In this document: positions 4,721-57,592 of the stretch, one piece after another
Position numbering within the stretch: position 1 is the stretch's first letter
Layout: each line of letters starts with the position of its first letter
Source: Paludibacteraceae bacterium
GTDB lineage: Bacteria > Bacteroidota > Bacteroidia > Bacteroidales > Paludibacteraceae
Length of the DNA: 64,000 nucleotides
Assembly (NCBI GenBank): GCA_024401555.1
Contig: JAKSKV010000007.1
Coordinates: 1 to 64,000 of the forward strand
Reading direction: 5' to 3'
Program-made: the position numbers and the translations under genes
The notes under the pieces: generated by a model
Database searches by the model: none
The model's input: the letters and a program-made list of their open reading frames with translations, nothing else
What the model was told of the DNA's origin: nothing

Positions 4721-7700
4721 ATGAAAAACAACAGACTTTTACGCATCGTTATGATGCTATGTTTTTTGGGAGTGTCTGTGTTCTCGTATGCGGAACCGGA
4801 TCCTAATTTCCACATTTATCTCTGTTTCGGACAATCCAATATGGAGGGTGCGGCCAGTGTGCCTAATTCTGAAAAGCAGGGTATAGATGAGCGTTTTCAA
4901 CTATTATTTTCCGCAAACGATTGTTCTGGCGGCAGAAAGAAGGGGCAATGGTACACCGCCGTTCCGCCTTTGGCACACTGTAGTTCAGGATTTGGCCCTG
5001 TGGACAATTTCGGTAGAACCATGGTGGCGAATCTCGATGAGAGCATCCGTGTGGGTGTCGTTGTCGTTGCCGTAGGTGGTGCTGACATCAAGCTATTCGA
5101 GAGCGGTGCCGAGAGTTATGTCTCTGGTGAGGCTGATTGGTTTAAAAACATCGCAGCCCAATATAACAACAACGGTTACACCCGCCTTGTCGAAATGGGT
5201 AAGCTTGCCCAAAAGGATGGCGTGATCAAGGGTATCTTGGTGCATCAAGGTGAGACTAACACAGGTCAATCCAACTGGCCTAACCGTTTGAAGGCAGTCT
5301 ATGAGAATTTGTTGAAAGACCTAAGTTTGAAGGCATCAGAGGTGCCTTTGTTGGTGGGTGAGGTTCGTTACACAGGACCTTGCAGCAGCCACAACAATGT
5401 GATTCGAAATGTTCCAAGTGTTATTCCTACCGCACATGTCATCTCTGCTAAAGATTGTGAAGCGGCTGGCGACCAATACCACTTTACCGTGAATGGTTAT
5501 AAGACATTGGGTAAGCGCTATGCGGAGAAGATGTTGGAGTTATTGGGAGATAACCCAGTCGCTCAAGTTGATTTGAGACTATCCGCCATCGCTTCCAAAG
5601 AGTCTGAGCCTGGTGAGATTGAAATCAATGTGACCAAGGAGAACAACAACATCAACAAGGTGGAGATTTATGTAGACGACAAGATGGTCGCTTCTAATGT
5701 AGATGCTTATACGGTTGAGAATGTGAAGGAGGGTAGCCATACTGTATATGCAGTAGGATACGATAGTAGCAATAAGAGTTATAAGACATCTGCGGTAACT
5801 GTTAAGATTATGCCTGAACAGAAGCCTTATAATGGATCACCAGCGAAGATTCCTGGAAAGATTGAGGCGGAAGAGTTCGACTTCGGTGGTGAAGGAAACG
5901 CTTACCACGATAACGATGAGGAGAACCGTAACAAGGGTAACCGTAACGAGGGTGTCGATATGAACAACACGGCCGTAGGATACACCCAAACAGGTGAGTG
6001 GATTGAATATACCGTAGAGGTGGAGGAAGATGGCGAATACGAGGTGGAGTCCCGTGTCGCTTCAGGAAACAATGGCGCACAGTTTACGCTATATATGGAT
6101 AACCAATTCATTATCCCTGGTGCGGATGGAACCCCTGGCGGATTCATTGACGTGCCTAATACGGGAGATTGGGAGACCTTTAAGACGGTTACTACCAAAT
6201 TGAATAAGTTGACAAAAGGTGTCCATGTATTGAAGGTGGAGATCACTGGCGATTTTGTGGATATTGACTATTTCAACTTTAAGAAGGCTGGTTCGTCTAG
6301 TCAAGAGCAAGGTTCTCAAGGCCAACAGGGCCAGCAAGGTAGCCAAACACAACCCAAAGAGGAACTTTTGACGGGTGTTACTACTGGTCAATATGTGGAT
6401 ATCAAGGTGCTTAATAGAACCGTCTCCACCTATGCGCCTAAGGGTGCCCATACCAATCGTCCTTTGATGATCTCTTGCCACGGTATGAATCAGGACATTA
6501 AATATCAAAGAGAGTTGACGCAATGGGAGACTGTAGCGGATACGGCTGACTTCATTGTGGCATATCCTTCTTCTGTGGGTTCTACTTGGGAGATCAATGG
6601 TAAGTCAGACTTGGAGTATATCATTGCTATCATTGAGCAATTGGAGAAGACTCATAAGATTGATAGAACCAGAGTCTATATGAGTGGATTCTCCATGGGT
6701 GGTATGCTTACCTATCACTGTATGAATGAGATCCCTGATTACTTTGCCGCATTTGCTCCTATCTCAGGATATATGGGCTCGCGTGTGGAGGCTGGTACAA
6801 GACCCGTACCTTTGATCCACACCCACGGTACGAGCGATGGTGTCGTAAGTTACCCTCCGACCAATGGTTGGATCGGTGCTGAGGCGACCGCTGAAAACTG
6901 GGCAAAACACAATAAGACTACGGAAAAGACTAAATATACAGTGGAGTCCGCCAACATTACCAAGTGGAGCGGCGGTGAGTGTGATGCTGACGTTGTCTTG
7001 GCTTCCGTGCCAGGTCGTGACCATGAACCTACCAACCGTGGTTACCATACGTCCCGTGAGATTTGGAAGTTCGTTAGCCAATATTCAACCGCTTGCGGTA
7101 AGGGCAAGCCTGCTTTGAATATTGAGATTGTCGAGATCAAGAATAACGATCCAGGCGAGGTGGAAGTGAGCGTCTCTATCGTGGATGAGAACATTAAGAG
7201 CATCGTCATCTATGTTGACAACAAAAAGGTAGGCGATGGTAGCAAGGTGGTTACTTTGAGTGATTTGGCCGAGGGTAGCCATACCGTTGTGGCGACTGGA
7301 TATGACAGTAGTAATAAAGAGGTCGGAACCGCAAGCAAGACCATTACCATCTATGAGGCTCAAAAACCATTCAATGGTTCGCCTGCCGCAATCCCAGGCA
7401 CTATCGAGGCAGAGGAATTTGACTTCGGTGGCGAGGGCAACGCTTACCATGACAATGATGAGGAGAACCGCAATAAGGGTAACCGTAACGAGGGTGTCGA
7501 TATGAACAACACTGCGGTGGGTTATACGCAGAAGGGTGAATGGATTGAGTACACGGTTGATGTGGAGAGCGCTGGAACCTACTCTTTTGAGGCGAAGGTC
7601 GCTTCCGGTAACGACGGTTCATCATTTACCCTTTACATGGATAACGAGAACATCATCCCTGGCGGTAAATCCATCAGTGTTCCTAATACGGGTGATTGGG

Positions 7701-8017
7701 AGACATTCACTACCGTTAAGTCTGACCTCAACAAGTTGAGCAAGGGTGTTCACGTCTTGAAGTTGGAGATCACAGGTGACTATGTTGATATCGATAATTT
7801 CACCTTCAAGTTGGTGAAGGCCGATGAGACAGGTCTTGATATGGATCTTGCGGATGATGCGATCATCCCTGACGGCGACTACAAGGCGTACGATGTAATG
7901 GGAAGATTTGTGAAGAATGTCTTGGTTCAGAATGCGCGATGCGAGGATTTGAAGGCCGGTTTCTATGTGTTGGTTAGTGAGGAGGGTAGATCTTTCTCTA
8001 TGCTTATCGGTAAATAA
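4721..8017 (+). CDS. Secreted two-domain carbohydrate esterase (CE6/SASA-like + CE1-like) with two CBM6 modules
   Basis: 1098 residues. Order: signal peptide 1-24; SGNH/sialate-O-acetylesterase-like (CE6-type) domain ~28-275 with FGQSNMEG (Ser39), HQGETN (175-180) and DQYHF (Asp251/His254); Ig-like linker ~283-365; CBM6-like module ~370-522; Gln/Ser/Gly linker ~523-545; CE1/feruloyl-esterase-like alpha/beta hydrolase ~550-795 with GFSMG (Ser658) and HGTSDG (Asp706); second Ig-like linker; second CBM6 ~882-1030; T9SS-like tail ending SFSMLIGK. The predicted role is removal of acetyl and possibly feruloyl esters from xylan-type polysaccharide outside the cell. The two Ig+CBM6 blocks are near-duplicates. 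It is a single-gene unit with its own promoter and terminator. Substrate is inferred, not shown. Confidence 0.88.
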   Translation: MKNNRLLRIVMMLCFLGVSVFSYAEPDPNFHIYLCFGQSNMEGAASVPNSEKQGIDERFQLLFSANDCSGGRKKGQWYTAVPPLAHCSSGFGPVDNFGRTMVANLDESIRVGVVVVAVGGADIKLFESGAESYVSGEADWFKNIAAQYNNNGYTRLVEMGKLAQKDGVIKGILVHQGETNTGQSNWPNRLKAVYENLLKDLSLKASEVPLLVGEVRYTGPCSSHNNVIRNVPSVIPTAHVISAKDCEAAGDQYHFTVNGYKTLGKRYAEKMLELLGDNPVAQVDLRLSAIASKESEPGEIEINVTKENNNINKVEIYVDDKMVASNVDAYTVENVKEGSHTVYAVGYDSSNKSYKTSAVTVKIMPEQKPYNGSPAKIPGKIEAEEFDFGGEGNAYHDNDEENRNKGNRNEGVDMNNTAVGYTQTGEWIEYTVEVEEDGEYEVESRVASGNNGAQFTLYMDNQFIIPGADGTPGGFIDVPNTGDWETFKTVTTKLNKLTKGVHVLKVEITGDFVDIDYFNFKKAGSSSQEQGSQGQQGQQGSQTQPKEELLTGVTTGQYVDIKVLNRTVSTYAPKGAHTNRPLMISCHGMNQDIKYQRELTQWETVADTADFIVAYPSSVGSTWEINGKSDLEYIIAIIEQLEKTHKIDRTRVYMSGFSMGGMLTYHCMNEIPDYFAAFAPISGYMGSRVEAGTRPVPLIHTHGTSDGVVSYPPTNGWIGAEATAENWAKHNKTTEKTKYTVESANITKWSGGECDADVVLASVPGRDHEPTNRGYHTSREIWKFVSQYSTACGKGKPALNIEIVEIKNNDPGEVEVSVSIVDENIKSIVIYVDNKKVGDGSKVVTLSDLAEGSHTVVATGYDSSNKEVGTASKTITIYEAQKPFNGSPAAIPGTIEAEEFDFGGEGNAYHDNDEENRNKGNRNEGVDMNNTAVGYTQKGEWIEYTVDVESAGTYSFEAKVASGNDGSSFTLYMDNENIIPGGKSISVPNTGDWETFTTVKSDLNKLSKGVHVLKLEITGDYVDIDNFTFKLVKADETGLDMDLADDAIIPDGDYKAYDVMGRFVKNVLVQNARCEDLKAGFYVLVSEEGRSFSMLIGK

Positions 8018-8039
8018 TCAATCATTTCTTATATTTGTG

Positions 8040-8069
8040 GACGGGGAGTGTCGCATGACGCTTCCCGTC
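8040..8069 (+). terminator. Terminator after the dual esterase
   Basis: A 13-bp stem (8040-8052 with 8057-8069, some G-T pairs) closes a GCAT loop 22 bases after the esterase stop and is followed by TCTTTAATT. Confidence 0.7.
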
Positions 8070-8109
8070 TTTAATTCTGCGTGAAGCGTGCATCAATCAA
8101 TATTATTTG

Positions 8110-8117
8110 TATCTTTG
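8110..8117 (+). promoter_or_regulatory. -7 box of the VapBC-like operon
   Basis: TATCTTTG, a perfect TAnnTTTG match, lies 22 bases before the antitoxin ATG and after the esterase terminator, marking the toxin-antitoxin pair as a separate unit. Confidence 0.55.
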
Positions 8118-8139
8118 CGTGTAACTAAAATGTGAAACT

Positions 8140-8397
8140 ATGAAAATATTAGAGTTAGATGTTAGAGAAAAGTTGCTGGCAGATATCAGTACGGAGGCAT
8201 TATCTATAAACTCAGGTAATGTGATTGGCATTTTAAAAGAGATGCTTGTTAAGTTAAAGAGCCTTTCGGGAAAAAAACGTAGTGCAAAAGAGTTCTATGG
8301 CATCTGGAAGGATGATTTGATTTCAGATGATGAATTTTTGGATTCTTTGAAACGCTCTCGGAATTTCAAAAATGATATTGAGAAAATGTATGAATAA
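8140..8397 (+). CDS. Probable antitoxin of the VapC-like toxin
   Basis: 85 residues, acidic and Lys-rich with mostly helical predicted composition. The N-terminal part (LLADISTEALSINSGNVIGILKEM) may be the DNA-binding/dimerisation region, while the C-terminal part (SAKEFYGIWKDDLISDDEFLDSLKRSR) is the kind of extended tail that wraps a PIN toxin. It does not match a VapB family I recognise. The assignment rests on position: it precedes the PIN toxin by 14 bases under a shared promoter. In such pairs the antitoxin blocks the nuclease and autoregulates the operon. Function inferred. Confidence 0.7.
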   Translation: MKILELDVREKLLADISTEALSINSGNVIGILKEMLVKLKSLSGKKRSAKEFYGIWKDDLISDDEFLDSLKRSRNFKNDIEKMYE

Positions 8398-8411
8398 ATA
8401 ATAATTAATCT

Positions 8412-8825
8412 ATGGCTAAAAAATACTTGTTAGATACAAATGTTTGCGTTTTTCTTCTTCGTGGTAAATATAATGTAGATCAAAAGATAGATAATGTTGA
8501 TTGGGAAAATTGCTGCATATCCTCTATCACTGCGGCTGAATTAAAATTTGGAGCAGAATTGATGAGGAGAAAAGGAGGAAATTTCCCCAATCAGGGATTA
8601 GCCGACTTTATTGATTCTATTGATGTTGTGACGATTGACTCTGCTTTAGATGTATTTGCCCAAGAGAAGGCAAGATTACAATTGATGGGGACGCCTGTTG
8701 ATGATAACTTTGATCTGTTAATTGGGGCTACAGCTGTCGCAAATCATTTTGTTTTAGTGACAGAAAATATATCGGATTTTGATAGACTTCAAAATGTTGA
8801 AATTGAAAATTGGATAATGCGATAA
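8412..8825 (+). CDS. vapC: VapC-like PIN-domain ribonuclease toxin
   Basis: 137 residues, the normal VapC length. The acidic PIN residues are visible: Asp8 in LLDTN, Glu43 in TAAELKFG, Asp98/Asp101 in PVDDNFDLLIGA and Asp122 in TENISDFDRL. VapC toxins are magnesium-dependent RNases that cut tRNA or rRNA when freed from the antitoxin. The PVDDNFDLLIGATAVAN segment is typical of the FitB/VapC branch. The gene appears intact. The RNA target cannot be read from sequence. Confidence 0.9.
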   Translation: MAKKYLLDTNVCVFLLRGKYNVDQKIDNVDWENCCISSITAAELKFGAELMRRKGGNFPNQGLADFIDSIDVVTIDSALDVFAQEKARLQLMGTPVDDNFDLLIGATAVANHFVLVTENISDFDRLQNVEIENWIMR

Positions 8826-8899
8826 TTAAGATACGACATAGGTCTGAACTTTTGATTTATCGCTCAGTATGATAAATAATTAAAGAGAGAATTTCATAT

Positions 8900-50594: not shown

Positions 50595-51311
50595 ATGAAG
50601 ATAGACAACAACACCGATATACAGGGCATGAAGGTTATTGTCCTCCAAAAGACAGGTCTTGTAGAGAAAAGTAGACAAGGTGTTGACCGCATGTTTGCTA
50701 TCTGCATCTCTGAAGGCAAGCCTATTCCCGATTACTCTCTGACCGATGAATGGCAGGTATGCCTACGTCTGCACGGAACAATTCAAGACCCTGCTCTCTT
50801 GCTTCTGATACACGATATTCAGCATAATCGTTCTACGACGGAAAAACGGAATGCCTCTGATCTTCTTGCCCTCTATCGCGTATCACGAGGCGAAAGTATA
50901 CGCAATATTGATAGTGCGACCCTAAAGAAACTGTTATCTCAGGGGCTCTTGATAGAAACAGACAACGGAATAAAGCTCACACCCCTGTATGAGGAGATGA
51001 AGCTTCGTGCAAGTGTTATTGACAGAATAGAAGATCAGAATATCCATTTAAATGATATGGTAAATGTCCCAGTAAATGATACGGTAAAGTTTTCACAACT
51101 TACTGAAAGACAGAAGAAGATTTATCATATCATAAAAGATGGTACGATAAATGATACTGCAAATGATACTGCAACCGCCAAAACATTATCAGAATCATTA
51201 GGCACCAGTATTATAACCATAAAACGTGATCTTGCTGCCATGCAATCCGTGGGTGTCATAAAGCGTGTCGGAAGTGATAAGACTGGACATTGGGAAGCAA
51301 TCGTTAAATAA
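50595..51311 (+). pseudogene. C-terminal half of an AlbA/RecG-like ATP-binding protein
   Basis: 238 residues in frame but lacking the N-terminal AlbA_2 and ATPase regions. What is left starts with GLVEKSRQGVDRMFAICISE, a boundary segment of this family, followed by PDYSLTDEWQVCLRLHG and a C-terminal winged helix (QKKIYHIIKDG, TSIITIKRDLAAMQSVGVIK). A Thr/Asn/Asp repeat (NDTANDTATA) forms the hinge. Intact members are ~450-500 residues. It may still be expressed as a short DNA-binding protein, so pseudogene is my best reading. Confidence 0.65.
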
Positions 51312-51328
51312 ACATACAAAGATTTTAA

Positions 51329-52324
51329 ATGGCATTCGGAATAGACATAAAGGAGGAAGTAATGCGGTCTTGGGGACACGGAATCCTTGAGACGCTACTT
51401 CGCGATCACACTACGGGCGAAAATATAATCTGGGCAACCGATGATTATGCTGAACGTGGTGAGGGTTACACCTTCTATGACCAGATAACGGCACAAAAAA
51501 TCTGCTGTAATGAGAGTCGTGTGATCGTACCAAGAGTCTTAAAGGACAAGGATTGTCAAAAGAACAGGGCACGAAAGATGGCAGAGGTGTTCACACCTTC
51601 TTGGTTGTGCAACCAGATGCTCAATGATGTTGATGAGCGTTTGTTTGGACGCAAGGATGTATTCAATACTTGCACCGAAATGGGTAAGGTTTGGCGACCA
51701 ACAGAAGCACCGGTATTTAAAGAAACAGACACATTAAAATGGAAAGAGTACGTCACCAAGACAGTAATGGAAATCACATGCGGTGAGGCTCCTTTCATTG
51801 TCAGCCGTTACGATACTGTGTCAGGACGTTTCTTTGATAATGTTAATCAACGAATTGGATTCCTCGACCGCAAACTTCGTGTTGTTACAGAGAACGTCAA
51901 GGAGAAAGAAGAGTGGATACATTGGGTAAAGATCGCCTATAAGTGTTCTTTCGGCTACGAGTGGCAAGGTGACAACTTGCTCTTGGCAAGACAAAACCTC
52001 TTGATGACGTTCTTTGACTATTACGAGACGGTTTGGAACGAACAGCCATCTTGGGAGTTAGTCGCAGAAATGGCAGAGATCATTTCTTGGAACATCTGGC
52101 AGATGGATGGTTTAAAGTACGTGCTGCCTAAAAGTTGTAAGACACAAGTCATCGAAGAATCTGACATCTTCGGTGAGATTACTCGCAAGGAAATTCCATG
52201 TGAAGGCTGCCTAAAGGATTTGAAGCATAAGCACAACGGAATCTATGCCAAGATGATGGATTGGTCGAAAAATGAGGTCGTTGATGCTATAACATTCTTA
52301 AACCAAAAGGACAATGACAAATAG
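51329..52324 (+). CDS. Restriction-modification subunit (degenerate methyltransferase-like)
   Basis: 331 residues. Blocks resemble proteins annotated as restriction endonuclease subunit M: AEVFTPSWLCNQMLNDVD (an FTP-type N-terminus of adenine methyltransferases), MEITCGEAPFIVSRYDTVSG (position of motif I, but not a normal SAM motif), GYEWQGDNLLLARQNLLMTF. No NPPY motif is visible, so methyltransferase activity is doubtful. It overlaps the start of the large RM gene by 11 bases, indicating translational coupling and joint function as an accessory or DNA-recognition subunit. Confidence 0.75.
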   Translation: MAFGIDIKEEVMRSWGHGILETLLRDHTTGENIIWATDDYAERGEGYTFYDQITAQKICCNESRVIVPRVLKDKDCQKNRARKMAEVFTPSWLCNQMLNDVDERLFGRKDVFNTCTEMGKVWRPTEAPVFKETDTLKWKEYVTKTVMEITCGEAPFIVSRYDTVSGRFFDNVNQRIGFLDRKLRVVTENVKEKEEWIHWVKIAYKCSFGYEWQGDNLLLARQNLLMTFFDYYETVWNEQPSWELVAEMAEIISWNIWQMDGLKYVLPKSCKTQVIEESDIFGEITRKEIPCEGCLKDLKHKHNGIYAKMMDWSKNEVVDAITFLNQKDNDK

Positions 52325-55300
52325 TGCTATCATAGAAAAATTTATCGTAGGACGTGTGGAACCTCACATCTATGCGTTCGAGACAGGCACTGTGCCAAAC
52401 TATCTGAAGATTGGTGACACGTATCGTCCTGTTGAAACGCGTTTGAATGAGTGGCGACGCTACTTTGCTGACCTGCAAAAGAAATACGATGAACCAGCAA
52501 CCGCTGGCGATGAATACTTCCGTGACCTCTCGGTTCACGAATACATCATCCGCGAGAAGGGACGCAAGCGTCTCGAAAAAACAACCCTTCCGGACATTCC
52601 TTACTACTCGAACGAGTTCTTTGAGAATGCCACAACGGGGGATGTGGATGAAGCTATTCAAGACATCAGGAAGAGTGCCACTGATAAAGATGGACGTTAC
52701 AAGCTCTATTCGATGAAGGATGGCAGAGTGCCTGTTGACTTCCATTACGTAAGAGGTGAAGAGCCTATAGTATTGCGACCTAACCAGGAAGCGGTAGTCA
52801 AGAGATTCATTGAAGCCAAGAATCATCGTCGGACCCATTTGCTCATGTATGCCGTTATGCGATTTGGCAAATCCATCACGGCCATGAGTTGCGCAAAGGC
52901 TATGGATGCACACCTTGTAGTCGTTGTTTCAGCCAAAGCCGATGTCAAGACAGAATGGAAGAAGACGGTAGAGAGTTTCAAGAACTTTGAAGGCTATGAG
53001 TTTGCCGACAGCGACGACTTGAAACGAAACGATTCTCTGATAAAGCAAGCAAAAAGGGAACGTAAGAACCTTGTTGTATGCCTAACGCTCCAAGACCTTA
53101 GCAGCAAGGAGGTGAAGGCACGCCATAAGGATTTGTTCCGTCAGAGCATAGACCTTCTGATTGTTGACGAAACGCACTTTGGAGCTCGTGCAGAACATTA
53201 TGGCAAGGTGCTTCCTCCTGTAGGCGCAACACCTAAACAAGAGCGCAAATATGACGCAGAATCCGCTGATGAACTGGACATCCAAGTCAAGCAGCTTAAT
53301 GCCAAAATGCAATTACACTTGTCTGGCACGCCATACAGAATCCTTATGGGTGATGAATTTACGGACGAGGACGTTATCTGCTACTGCCAGTTCTCTGACA
53401 TTGCACAGGCAAGCGAAGAGTGGGATAAGGCGAATCTTGACACCAAGGACGAATGGGAGAATCCTTACTATGGTTTCCCTCAAATGGTGCGTTTTGCCTT
53501 CAATCCCAACGAATCGTCCTTGCGAAAGCTGGCAGAACTGCAGAAGAACGGCATAACGATTGCTTTCAGCGAGTTGTTCAAGCCTAAATCAATCACGAAG
53601 TCAGCAGAGGGGCTGCATCAAAAGTTCGAGCATGAGGCTGAAATACTTGATTTCCTTCATGCCATAGACGGAACAGAAGAGGATGGAAATATTCTTTCAT
53701 TTCTTGCCAACGAGAGAATTCAAAACGGCAAACTCTGTCGCCACATAGTTTGTGTACTGCCTTATCGTGCTTCATGTGATGCTATGGAACAACTCCTTGT
53801 CAATCATGCCAACGAGTTCAAGCATCTTTCAAACTACACAATACTGAACATTTCTGGCGTAGAAAACGAACGACTTTTCCCCAATGTGGATTCTGTGAAG
53901 AAGCGAATCTCCGATTTTGAAGCGAACGATCAAAAGACTATAACGCTTACCGTATCAAGAATGATGACAGGTGTTACGGTTCCAGAATGGGACACGATGC
54001 TCTATCTAAAAGATACGGCTTCTCCACAGGAATACGATCAAGCCATCTTCCGTCTGCAAAGTCCTTACGTTAAGACCTATAAGGATGAGGAAGGTAACGA
54101 GATAAGGTACAACATGAAACCACAGACGCTTCTTGTTGACTTCGACCCAAATCGTATGTTTATTCTCCAGGAGTTACGCGCTCACATTTACGACATCAAC
54201 ACAGATGCCAATGGCAATAGCAACCTAGAAAGGCGCATAGAACGTGAGTTGCAAGTTTCGCCTATCATCTGGATGAACAAGCAACACTTGCAAGAGGTAA
54301 CTCCAGCTAATATTCTTGATGCAGTTCGTGCATACTCCAACGAGCGGAGCGTTCTTGATGAAGCAAAGGAAGTACCTGCGGATTTGTCGCTTGGTGACAT
54401 TGACGAACTGAACGCTATCATCATGCGTCAGCAACCTATTGGTTCTCGCGGAGGTTTGAAAGTAAAACCAGCTGAGGAGGAAGGTGACGATGATTTGGAT
54501 GTGCCAGACGTACCTGATTCGGGTGAACCATCCGAAAAGAAGCCCAAAGAAGAGAGCGAGACAAAGGAAGACAATAGTTTTGAAAAACGCCTTCAAACGC
54601 TCTATTCAAGGATTCTTCTTTACGCATTCCTCACAAACGACGAAGTCATCTCGCTTGAAGCAATGGTACTTTCGGCATGTAGCGGCAGTAACAACAAACG
54701 AATACTTGTAAATCTCGGATTGGACGTAAAGACATTGAAACTCCTGTTCAAGCACCTGAATCCAAACGTTCTTCACCAGCTCGACTACAAGATTCACAAT
54801 ATCAATTCGCTTGCTCACGATGAATCACTTTCGCCTATTGAGCGAGTAGAGAATGCCATGAGGAAGTTCGGTCGATGGTCAACTTCTGAGATTGTTACTC
54901 CGAATCACTTGGCGACACAGATGCTGTCAGAACTCCCTCGCAAGCAGATTACAGCAGACACCAAGTTCATGGACATTGCGTCGAAGGAAGGTGAGTTTGC
55001 ATACGCGATCATTCAAACATTCGGCGAGCATTACAAGGACAAGATTTATTCCATCCCGACATCAACCATTGCCTACGAGTTCACCCGCAAGGTTTACGAG
55101 GCACTTGGAATGCCAATAGAGAACATAGAAAACGAATTTAATTCATACGACCTCATCGGTGAAAACGCTGAGGTTCATATAAACAAGATAAAGAGTATGT
55201 GTATAAACATAGCAGTAGGTAATCCTCCTTATCAGGACGAAGGTGGTTCTGGCGGCACTAATGATGCACCTATTTATCAGAAATTCTGCAAGGTGGCAAA

Positions 55301-56201
55301 GGAAAACACTTCAAGTATGTCATCGCTTGTAATTCCAGCAAAGTGGTTTACTGGAGGTCGTGAGCATTTGCTTGGAGAATTCCGTAGAGACATGCTCAGT
55401 TCAAATGAGGTGTCATGTCTAACTGCATATCCAAATCACAAGGAATTGTTCCCTGAGGTTGAATTGAAAGGTGGAGTATGTTATTTTGTGCGAGGAAAGA
55501 AATATGATGGTGCTTGTAACTACTCTACAATTTCAAACGGAGTCATTGAAACAGCAGAGGTTAATCTTAGCGAAATGGATGTTTTTGTTAGAGAACCATT
55601 GAAGGCTAAAATTGTGGCAAAGGTCCTTGCTGTAGCAAAAAACGAAGGGCAGAAATTTGTCAGCGAGATACTCTCTTCTGATACTCCATTTGGTGTTCCA
55701 ACAAATCCAACCAAGAATAAGAAAGTCGTTTATGAGGTTCAAAATAGTAAAGATGACGAATTCTCTGTAGAGCTTCATTATCTTATCAACAATAAAAGAC
55801 ATACGGGTTACATTAAGAAAGACTCAATTAAGAAGAATTCGGATGATATTGACAAGATAAAAGTTTATGTACCAGCTGCTGGTGGCTCAGGTAATGACAA
55901 AATTGTCTTAGGCAAACCTATAATAGCAATGCCTCCTTCAGTTTGTTCTCAAACATACCTATACGCTACATTCGCTTCGCTCAACGAAGCAGAAAATTTC
56001 GTTTCTTATCTAAAGACACGATTCTTCCGCTTCCTTGTATCTGCCATAAAGATCACCCAGCACGCCCAATCTTCTGTTTACAAGTTCGTTCCTGTTCATG
56101 ATTTCTCTGAAGTATGGACGGACGAGAGACTTTTCGCAAAATATGGAATAATAGAAGACGAGAAAGAATACATTATGGCAGGAATAAATGTTATGGAATA
56201 A
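52314..56201 (+). CDS. Single-chain restriction-modification enzyme: GIY-YIG + helicase + adenine methyltransferase
   Basis: 1295 residues. Order: GIY-YIG-like segment ~17-80 (PHIYAFETGTVPNYLKIGDT, LSVHEYI); superfamily 2 helicase ~150-620 with AVMRFGKSITA (~180-190), VDETHFGA (284-291), LSGTPYR (336-342), QAIFRLQSPY (576-585); acidic Glu/Asp/Pro linker ~719-755; adenine methyltransferase ~850-1000 with KFMDIASKEGEFA (motif I region) and VGNPPYQ (968-974, N6-adenine motif IV); C-terminal specificity-like region to the end. The layout (nuclease, translocase, methyltransferase, recognition in one chain) recalls type ISP/type IIL enzymes but with GIY-YIG. Helicase and methyltransferase calls are solid; nuclease assignment by eye. 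Confidence 0.85.
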   Translation: MTNSAIIEKFIVGRVEPHIYAFETGTVPNYLKIGDTYRPVETRLNEWRRYFADLQKKYDEPATAGDEYFRDLSVHEYIIREKGRKRLEKTTLPDIPYYSNEFFENATTGDVDEAIQDIRKSATDKDGRYKLYSMKDGRVPVDFHYVRGEEPIVLRPNQEAVVKRFIEAKNHRRTHLLMYAVMRFGKSITAMSCAKAMDAHLVVVVSAKADVKTEWKKTVESFKNFEGYEFADSDDLKRNDSLIKQAKRERKNLVVCLTLQDLSSKEVKARHKDLFRQSIDLLIVDETHFGARAEHYGKVLPPVGATPKQERKYDAESADELDIQVKQLNAKMQLHLSGTPYRILMGDEFTDEDVICYCQFSDIAQASEEWDKANLDTKDEWENPYYGFPQMVRFAFNPNESSLRKLAELQKNGITIAFSELFKPKSITKSAEGLHQKFEHEAEILDFLHAIDGTEEDGNILSFLANERIQNGKLCRHIVCVLPYRASCDAMEQLLVNHANEFKHLSNYTILNISGVENERLFPNVDSVKKRISDFEANDQKTITLTVSRMMTGVTVPEWDTMLYLKDTASPQEYDQAIFRLQSPYVKTYKDEEGNEIRYNMKPQTLLVDFDPNRMFILQELRAHIYDINTDANGNSNLERRIERELQVSPIIWMNKQHLQEVTPANILDAVRAYSNERSVLDEAKEVPADLSLGDIDELNAIIMRQQPIGSRGGLKVKPAEEEGDDDLDVPDVPDSGEPSEKKPKEESETKEDNSFEKRLQTLYSRILLYAFLTNDEVISLEAMVLSACSGSNNKRILVNLGLDVKTLKLLFKHLNPNVLHQLDYKIHNINSLAHDESLSPIERVENAMRKFGRWSTSEIVTPNHLATQMLSELPRKQITADTKFMDIASKEGEFAYAIIQTFGEHYKDKIYSIPTSTIAYEFTRKVYEALGMPIENIENEFNSYDLIGENAEVHINKIKSMCINIAVGNPPYQDEGGSGGTNDAPIYQKFCKVAKENTSSMSSLVIPAKWFTGGREHLLGEFRRDMLSSNEVSCLTAYPNHKELFPEVELKGGVCYFVRGKKYDGACNYSTISNGVIETAEVNLSEMDVFVREPLKAKIVAKVLAVAKNEGQKFVSEILSSDTPFGVPTNPTKNKKVVYEVQNSKDDEFSVELHYLINNKRHTGYIKKDSIKKNSDDIDKIKVYVPAAGGSGNDKIVLGKPIIAMPPSVCSQTYLYATFASLNEAENFVSYLKTRFFRFLVSAIKITQHAQSSVYKFVPVHDFSEVWTDERLFAKYGIIEDEKEYIMAGINVME

Positions 56202-56204
56202 ACT

Positions 56205-56396
56205 ATGGGTACAGATTCTTTTGAAAGATACAATTACAAGGTAGAAGGACTCGTCTGTAGTAAGCCAGATGGATATCAAGTGTGGCTTGGTTACAGAACC
56301 GAGATCTTCTCACTGCGAGATTGGACAAGGTTCTATAATTGGGACGAAGATGAATGGCATCAAATCGAAGAGAGTAATTACCGACATTTGAATTAG
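56205..56396 (+). CDS. Small uncharacterised protein of the RM island
   Basis: 63 residues (MGTDSFERYNYKVEGLVCSK...), aromatic and acidic, no recognised motif. Begins four bases after the RM stop, so it is in the same operon. Could be a regulator, an inhibitor of the enzyme, or a cofactor. No similarity is claimed. Confidence 0.5.
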   Translation: MGTDSFERYNYKVEGLVCSKPDGYQVWLGYRTEIFSLRDWTRFYNWDEDEWHQIEESNYRHLN

Positions 56397-56449
56397 TATT
56401 TGAATTCCGTTCTGATCAAGACGGTGATGATGAAGAATAAATATAAACA

Positions 56450-57592
56450 ATGAGCGAAGAACAGAAATATATTGACTTTGAATCTTACCAGCGTGTGGCT
56501 GAGCCGCATAAGCGTGAGAAGGCTTTGGCTTGGCGTACTGCGATAGGTCTTCAGGATGTGGACGGACTTCGAGTGTCCGAATATCTGAAGGAAACCGCTG
56601 TTAAGCACATCGAGGGTGACATTACCATCGATGAGGTTAGAGAGCAACTTCGATCATACTATGTGAATAAGACAACGCATGACGCTGACGACGCTGAAAA
56701 GGAAGAGGCTGACCGTGTAGCGGCAAATATTACAAAACTCCTAAATGAGAAGTCGTTCTCTTTTACTCCTTTGGAGTTCTTGAATATCCATCGTCATTTA
56801 TTTGAGGGCGTTTTTAAGCACGCTGGTGAAATTCGTCCTTTTGACATTAGTAAAAAGGAATGGGTGTTACAAGGCGACTCAGTTGTATATGGACGAGCTG
56901 CGGACATCCATGCAACATTGAAATATGACATACAGAATGAACGTGATTTTATCTATAAAGGCTTGCCCACAGATGAAATCATCTCTCATATTGTGGATTT
57001 TGTGTCTTTGCTTTGGCAGAACCATCCATTCCGTGAAGGTAACACTCGCACAACTGCTGTGTTCGTCATCAAATATCTGCGTTCTTGTGGTTTCAAAGTG
57101 AACAATGAACTGTTTGCAGATAATTCTTGGTATTTTCGCAATGCCCTTGTGCGTGCCAATTACAGTAATCCGCAGAAGGGAATACAACCAGACAACTCTT
57201 TTCTCGTGAAGTTCTTCCGAAATCTGTTGCTCGGTGAGAACAACGAACTGAAGAATCGTTATATGCTGATTGGGTATAAGGAGGACGAGGGTGATACCCA
57301 TACAACCACCCATACAACCACCCATACAAGTTCAAATGATATACAACCTTCATCAGATAATGTGATGCGTTTGGTATTGGCAATCGGCAAAGAAGAGATG
57401 AGTGTTAAGGATATGATGGAAGCTGTAGGTTTGAAGAATCGCCCTAATTTTCTGGATTATTCACTCACACCAGCCATTCATGAGGGATTCGTGTGTATGA
57501 AGTACCCAGACAACCCCCATCATCCTCGTCAACGTTATTCGCTGACCGTTAAAGGAATGATGTTGTTGGACGTGAACAATATTAGAAACTAA
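56450..57592 (+). CDS. Fic-domain AMPylase-type protein with fused inhibitory helix
   Basis: 380 residues. Core motif HPFREGNTR (192-200), a clear Fic active site (H192, E196, N198, R200), which transfers AMP or a related group to protein hydroxyls. Before it, ~40-70 (SEYLKETAVKHIEGDITIDE) resembles the VbhA-type antitoxin/inhibitory helix, so it may be self-inhibited. The C-terminus is a winged helix (YSLTVKGMMLLD). Between them a Thr/His linker (THTTTHTTTHTS) comes from 12-bp repeats. It ends the island; association with the RM enzyme is by position only. Confidence 0.88.
   Translation: MSEEQKYIDFESYQRVAEPHKREKALAWRTAIGLQDVDGLRVSEYLKETAVKHIEGDITIDEVREQLRSYYVNKTTHDADDAEKEEADRVAANITKLLNEKSFSFTPLEFLNIHRHLFEGVFKHAGEIRPFDISKKEWVLQGDSVVYGRAADIHATLKYDIQNERDFIYKGLPTDEIISHIVDFVSLLWQNHPFREGNTRTTAVFVIKYLRSCGFKVNNELFADNSWYFRNALVRANYSNPQKGIQPDNSFLVKFFRNLLLGENNELKNRYMLIGYKEDEGDTHTTTHTTTHTSSNDIQPSSDNVMRLVLAIGKEEMSVKDMMEAVGLKNRPNFLDYSLTPAIHEGFVCMKYPDNPHHPRQRYSLTVKGMMLLDVNNIRN
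57296..57329 (+). repeat. 12-bp tandem repeats in the Fic linker
   Basis: ACCCATACAACC occurs at 57296, 57308 and, as a partial copy, 57320. In frame, encoding His-Thr-Thr-Thr units; slippage would alter linker length without breaking the frame. Confidence 0.85.

Follow-up and report, generated by a model that had tools for sequence, protein, structure and literature searches.

A probable two-protein restriction-modification system from a Paludibacteraceae bacterium in which a separate half-methyltransferase may serve the catalytic half

The 64,000-nucleotide stretch analyzed here (the window; positions 1 to 64,000 of contig JAKSKV010000007.1, assembly GCA_024401555.1, Paludibacteraceae bacterium) carries two genes, designated P2 and P1, both of which are open and which overlap by 11 nt. 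On balance, we think it somewhat probable that they encode a two-protein, ATP-dependent restriction-modification system, in which P2, a separate S-adenosylmethionine (SAM)-binding half of a methyltransferase, serves the catalytic half (MC) that lies within P1. In such a system, P1 would carry MC with its NPPY motif, a second SAM-domain half (MN), a superfamily 2 (SF2) motor and a GIY-YIG nuclease, and would recognize its site via a C-terminal target recognition domain (TRD). P2 would bind SAM, dock on MC and be required for methylation, the target of which would be adenine. Modified sites would be spared; at unmodified sites the motor would run and the GIY-YIG domain would cut the DNA, with cutting coupled to translocation and defence as the probable function. 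All of the open reading frames (ORFs) described in an earlier note on this DNA were found where that note had placed them. The features of the pair are as follows:

51329..52324, + strand: P2, 331 amino acids (aa), predicted SAM-binding N-half of a gamma-class DNA adenine methyltransferase
51581-51604, + strand: P2 motif X, AEVFTPSW
51770-51796, + strand: P2 motif I, EITCGEAPF
51950-51994, + strand: P2 motif II region
52082-52117, + strand: P2 motif III region
52314..56201, + strand: P1, 1295 aa, GIY-YIG / SF2 helicase / methyltransferase / TRD
52365..52664, + strand: T5orf172-type GIY-YIG domain, P1 residues 18-117 (Pfam, alignment, predicted structure)
52767..54233, + strand: SF2 helicase, P1 residues about 152-640 (MRFGKS at the Walker A position, DETH, SGTP, QxxxRxQ)
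54831..55199, + strand: MN, methyltransferase first half inside P1 (motif X-like VTP, motif I-like ASKEG)
55200..56198, + strand: MC, catalytic methyltransferase half plus TRD (Eco57I, GNPPY, TRD exchange)
55221-55232, + strand: NPPY, P1 residues 970-973
about 55554-56033, + strand: TRD within MC (TRD exchange between relatives)

A genome scan for relatives of P2 yielded at least 561 confirmed stretches, among which some names of metagenome-assembled genomes (MAGs) may be wrong. Because the 80 loci retained were the best-scoring of these, they are close relatives, some of them duplicated (L035/L036), and form a non-random sample. They were surveyed with five profiles, i.e., P2, NT (the GIY-YIG module), HEL, MN and MC. 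In 79 of the 80 loci, P2 had a GIY-YIG module at a distance of at most 7 kb, and of at most 150 bp in 73 of them; in the sole remaining locus, the sequence ends 189 bp after P2. The earlier note had held that its reading would fall if the neighbours were not conserved together, and for P1 and P2 they stand together in 79/80 loci. The four modules of P1 shared one ORF in 66/80 loci, and MN and MC did so in 70/80. Close P2 matches (E below 1e-60) were present in seven of 395 genomes of the phylum and in seven of the 61 genomes of the set of relatives, the source genome being included in both counts. Matches were also found in seven phage records and in 17 plasmid records (Enterococcus, 8; Lactiplantibacillus, 3; Bifidobacterium, 2; Pediococcus, 2; Treponema, 1; Loigolactobacillus, 1).

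P2 possesses the SAM motifs X, I, II and III, and its sequence stops before motif IV. In an alignment of 79 rows, i.e., the window and 78 relatives with one P2 match of 300-410 aa (L056 and L062 being excluded), no row carried a motif IV of the NPPY/F/W type. The earlier claim of a partner that lacks a catalytic motif and is coupled to P1 was thereby borne out, and the pair is conserved. The same note had called this partner degenerate. The positions of the SAM pocket are, however, almost invariant across the aligned relatives, and P2 is therefore more than a degenerate methyltransferase. Residues E148, C151, G152, D215, N255 and D260 are in register with stand-alone halves that carry the canonical EPACGxGNF, and motif I of P2 is altered to CGEAP in its glycine loop. 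Structures were predicted from alignments of 44 rows for P2 and 42 rows for the P1 N-terminus, chosen from the 80 loci; for the predicted P2 fold, the first 29 VIA rows were all DNA methyltransferases. No Pfam family matched P2, and 47 members of its family gave only scattered single matches to Pfam. When P2 was compared with MN by profile (hhalign), motif X alone was aligned (probability 61). The prediction from sequence and modeled fold is that P2 represents the SAM-binding half of a methyltransferase of the gamma class. Proteins of this type are named "restriction endonuclease subunit M" in NCBI records.

Rearranged relatives suggest which part of P1 goes with P2. P2 and MC were joined in a single open frame in four loci, i.e., L062 (663 aa), L109 (630 aa), L121 (728 aa) and L124 (678 aa). 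In L109, from Fusobacterium phage FNU4 (positions 6980-8872), the Pfam Eco57I domain matched with 88.9 bits over residues 178-371, about 100 of which lie in P2, MC beginning near residue 282. In the other three fusions, the Eco57I match started 3-28 residues ahead of MC, and a second frame, NT-HEL-MN, followed. No MN was found across the whole 44,440-base FNU4 record, nor was NT or HEL within the 14.8 kb of it examined. In Tenacibaculum phage PTm1, the P2 and MC frames are open and MN is split across two frames. Gene order also varied: L058 reads P2, MN-MC, NT-HEL, and L105, on a Bifidobacterium plasmid, reads P2, an insertion sequence (IS) element, MC, NT-HEL-MN. Since a P2-type first half goes with the catalytic half in every rearrangement, P2 would appear to serve MC. 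Eight distant relatives of P2 are stand-alone halves with a canonical motif I. Five of these eight short-half loci were widened, and all five showed a sister class in which the short canonical half, MN-MC and a GIY-helicase are neighbouring genes, with one or two additional ORFs between them in L209 and L210; a sixth region that was fetched proved to be a P2-P1 locus. P2-like proteins of some 255 aa that keep their SAM motifs were also observed on their own in seven viral contigs of 40-412 kb (L125, L126, L128, L129, L131, L132 and L133), with no MC beside them within up to 7 kb on each side.

P1 was aligned with the 64 relatives, out of the 80, that have a partner of at least 1250 aa (65 rows). 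The isolated N-terminus matched Pfam T5orf172 (PF10544) with 24 bits, above the curated cut-off of 20, and whole-length P1 scored 19.8 bits, slightly below it. Among the 42 members of the N-terminal domain, 26 matched T5orf172 and six MUG113 (Pfam, E<=0.01). The GIY-YIG residues K32, G34, R43, D71 and E101 were conserved in all 65 rows and H75 in 64; Y20, as judged by eye, is conserved too. The catalytic acid of GIY-YIG nucleases is expected to be Glu; the acid at this position was Asp in 65/65 rows and in the aligned sequences of the sister class. The predicted structure showed a GIY-YIG-like order of elements, with weak structural matches. The GIY-YIG segment that the earlier note had proposed is supported by the Pfam match, and an N-terminus devoid of such a fold, which that note had named as fatal to its reading, was not what the prediction gave.

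The remainder of the chain also agreed with the earlier description of a helicase and an adenine methyltransferase joined to this domain. Pfam ResIII matched residues 152-342 with 44.5 bits, and M182-K186, D285, E286, H288, S337-P340, Q576, R580 and Q582 were each present in 64 or 65 of the 65 rows. An Eco57I-type methyltransferase was likewise confirmed by Pfam (38.7 bits), and GNPPY occurred in 64/65 rows. The region behind the methyltransferase core was compared between pairs of relatives at 60-97% helicase identity, the pairs being mutually dependent. Of the 40 listed pairs that were most alike in the helicase (88-95% identity), 38 shared only 12-30% identity in this region; the exceptions were L024 with the window (93%) and L102 with L027 (82%). 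Because identity falls to 30% or less despite 88-95% in the helicase, the region behaves as a TRD.

In some relatives, the specificity module is present in more than one copy. One or two extra MC cassettes lie beside the system in two of the 80 genome loci, L031 (Prevotella corporis) and L038 (Capnocytophaga bilenii), and in one of 24 viral loci, contig L112. The regions with extra MC (NPPY plus TRD) are:

L031, 12950-16997
L038, 2014-6027
L112, 10952-14936

In all three, inverted repeats that are 28-37 nt long and 96-97% complementary lie on the NPPY codons, the pair in L112 linking its two extra cassettes, and related tyrosine recombinases adjoin the cassettes (in L031, Phage_integrase, 92 bits). 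Judged by its sequence, this arrangement suggests that specificity is switched by inversion. The window holds a single MC and no such inverted repeat.

In outline, the pair already has catalogue entries as a restriction-modification system, since models of PADLOC-DB cover both chains almost end to end: PDLC03626 (REase_MTase_IIG) matched P1 with 1081 bits over residues 6-1294 and PDLC03390 (MTase_II) matched P2 with 365 bits over nearly its full length. The idea that the single-chain arrangement is unprecedented was accordingly rejected. These models are named Type IIG restriction enzyme-methyltransferase and Type II methyltransferase, and their short descriptions mention neither a half-methyltransferase nor GIY-YIG. 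With models for both proteins already in PADLOC-DB, the arrangement is more ordinary than the earlier note had judged. Like Type IIG enzymes, P1 has a nuclease, a gamma-class methyltransferase and a single TRD in one chain; the prototypes of that type use a PD-ExK nuclease, whereas Pfam reported no PD-ExK domain in P1 and matched T5orf172 at the N-terminus instead. Naturally split cytosine-5 methyltransferases, e.g., M.AquI, form one enzyme from two polypeptides, with a split point other than that between P2 and MC.

According to the part of the published account considered here, the Type ISP enzymes LlaGI and LlaBIII consist of one chain with an Mrr-like nuclease, a translocase, a gamma-class methyltransferase and a TRD (PMC3874165). 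P1 shares this order of modules, and the P2 model resembles the methyltransferase part of LlaGI/LlaBIII; the Type ISP enzymes as described there are single chains, whereas here a GIY-YIG nuclease goes with a conserved partner. The Type IIG-like OspHL35III, compared by its partial description alone, shares a GIY-YIG nuclease, a translocase and a methyltransferase with TRD, the methyltransferase being MmeI-like, and is made of three separate proteins rather than a single chain (PMC4752239). GIY-YIG also serves as the restriction nuclease of Eco29kI, Cfr42I and Hpy188I, and Eco29kI and Hpy188I are Type IIP homodimers in the portion of the source covered (PMC4081073). No chain combining GIY-YIG, SF2 helicase and methyltransferase was found in the part of a 2006 survey of GIY-YIG proteins that was covered (PMC1564403), and no description of the P1-P2 pair was recognized in the open-access literature as partially covered here, REBASE lying outside the search. 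In sequence searches of the PDB, no related protein was returned for P1, for P2 or its profile, or for the N-terminus; the P2-MC fusions gave nothing beyond weak rows for HemK methyltransferases near NPPY (E 0.6), and MC nothing beyond DrdV, matched over 25 residues (E 1.8). NCBIfam matches were solely under its cut-offs.

Several observations weigh against P2 as the half that serves MC, and the main rival draws on most of them. P2 might be a structural or regulatory pseudo-methyltransferase subunit that aids DNA binding or senses SAM, with MN-MC as the complete enzyme, much as METTL14 acts as helper of METTL3. MN is conserved, is retained in most bacterial copies and shares an ORF with MC in the 70 loci noted above, and the glycine loop of P2 is altered. 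The sole phage fusion without MN, that of FNU4, may be a truncated copy, because its only early start codon follows motif X: the frame has none before residue 85, just past that motif, and the record annotates a protein beginning there. Moreover, in several phage contigs a P2-like protein of about 255 aa occurs alone; six such records, which may be fragments, were searched over their full length for MC, with strong matches in two, a weak match in one and none in the other three. However, P2 is fused to MC in four loci, the Eco57I domain runs unbroken across one of these fusions (L109), MN is broken in PTm1 where P2 and MC are open, and distant relatives of P2 bear a canonical motif I. We therefore regard a helper role as possible but somewhat doubtful. 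The presence of both halves would also allow two swappable SAM-binding halves for one MC, such that P2-MC modifies, the helicase-tied MN-MC restricts or senses, and the swap decides between methylation and cutting; this we think rather improbable.

Two further explanations concern the activity of the system rather than the role of P2. Methylation could mark self while the GIY-YIG domain lacks cutting activity and exclusion is achieved by other means, as in BREX. The Asp in place of the expected catalytic Glu, seen in every aligned row of the family and in the aligned sequences of its sister class, and the weak structural matches both speak for this; the near-complete conservation of the other GIY-YIG residues and the lack of any BREX component among the five proteins scanned (PADLOC, E<=0.01) speak against it, and we consider it very unlikely. 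There is only a slim chance that the locus is an inactive remnant or an orphan methyltransferase in the source strain. Its flanking ORFs are shorter than in the closest relative, Prevotella sp. P5-92 (L024), but the two overlapping genes are open and keep their conserved motifs, and the P1 helicase is 95% identical to that of L024. The reading of P2 as the SAM-binding half that serves MC is the one we retain.

The genes around the pair appear to be flanking ones:

50595..51311, + strand: C-terminal part (238 aa) of a SLFN_AlbA_2 / HATPase_c_4 type protein (589-aa homologue in L024)
56205..56396, + strand: 63-aa ORF, gene remnant (141-aa homologue in L024)
56450..57592, + strand: Fic, 380 aa, intact neighbour gene (Pfam, PADLOC)

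Positions 50640-56379 are 90% identical in DNA to L024, and the similarity ends 71 nt ahead of Fic. Homologues of the upstream SLFN_AlbA_2-type ORF measure 589 aa in L024 and 98 aa in L025, with matches in 5/80 loci; this ORF flanks the system and is not conserved with it. The 63-aa ORF, which the earlier note had placed behind the pair, is the start of the gene that encodes 141 aa in L024, and as a cut-off copy it was rejected as a subunit. The same note was right that the Fic gene is intact; membership in the system was rejected, as Fic matched no gene predicted in the 80 P2 loci, P2 was absent from the flanks (up to 1.5 kb) of 19 Fic loci from relatives, and similarity to L024 ends before Fic. 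Fic matches occurred in 29 of the 61 relatives, the source genome included, with 17 spanning at least 270 residues. The protein comprises a VbhA-like stretch (residues 29-68, under the Pfam cut-off), Fic (105-210) and Fic-like_C (303-366), matches the PADLOC candidate PDC-S72 with 418.6 bits and carries an HTTTHTTTH linker. It looks like a separate arrival, and we take it to be an independent gene for a toxin or for signalling. Ends of an island were not found. porV and the major facilitator superfamily (MFS) gene that follows it adjoin in nine of 16 genomes of the genus, the source genome included, and the gene upstream of porV (in the window, upstream of 57804) varies among six relatives viewed; the site before porV may be a variable junction.

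Other observations were made on the loci of relatives. Copies with frame breaks or an internal deletion were present in L048, L056, L061, L100 and L101, which suggests that the system is decaying in some genomes, unless the breaks are MAG errors. Genes for DUF1016/YhcG-type nucleases lie beside or inside the operon in L038 (3989-5026, by Pfam) and, by eye, in L034, L060, L209, L015 and L020, and a protein cluster resembling this nuclease touches 8/80 loci.

Taken together, the pair belongs to a widespread, under-described restriction-modification family that is catalogued in outline and has an uncommon nuclease, its main interest being the separate half-methyltransferase. For a widespread protein recorded as "restriction endonuclease subunit M", the label of a degenerate subunit gives way to a testable role. 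A fused restriction-modification enzyme has to decide whether to methylate or to cut, and SAM-binding and catalytic halves on separate, exchangeable modules would provide a direct handle on how that decision is made.
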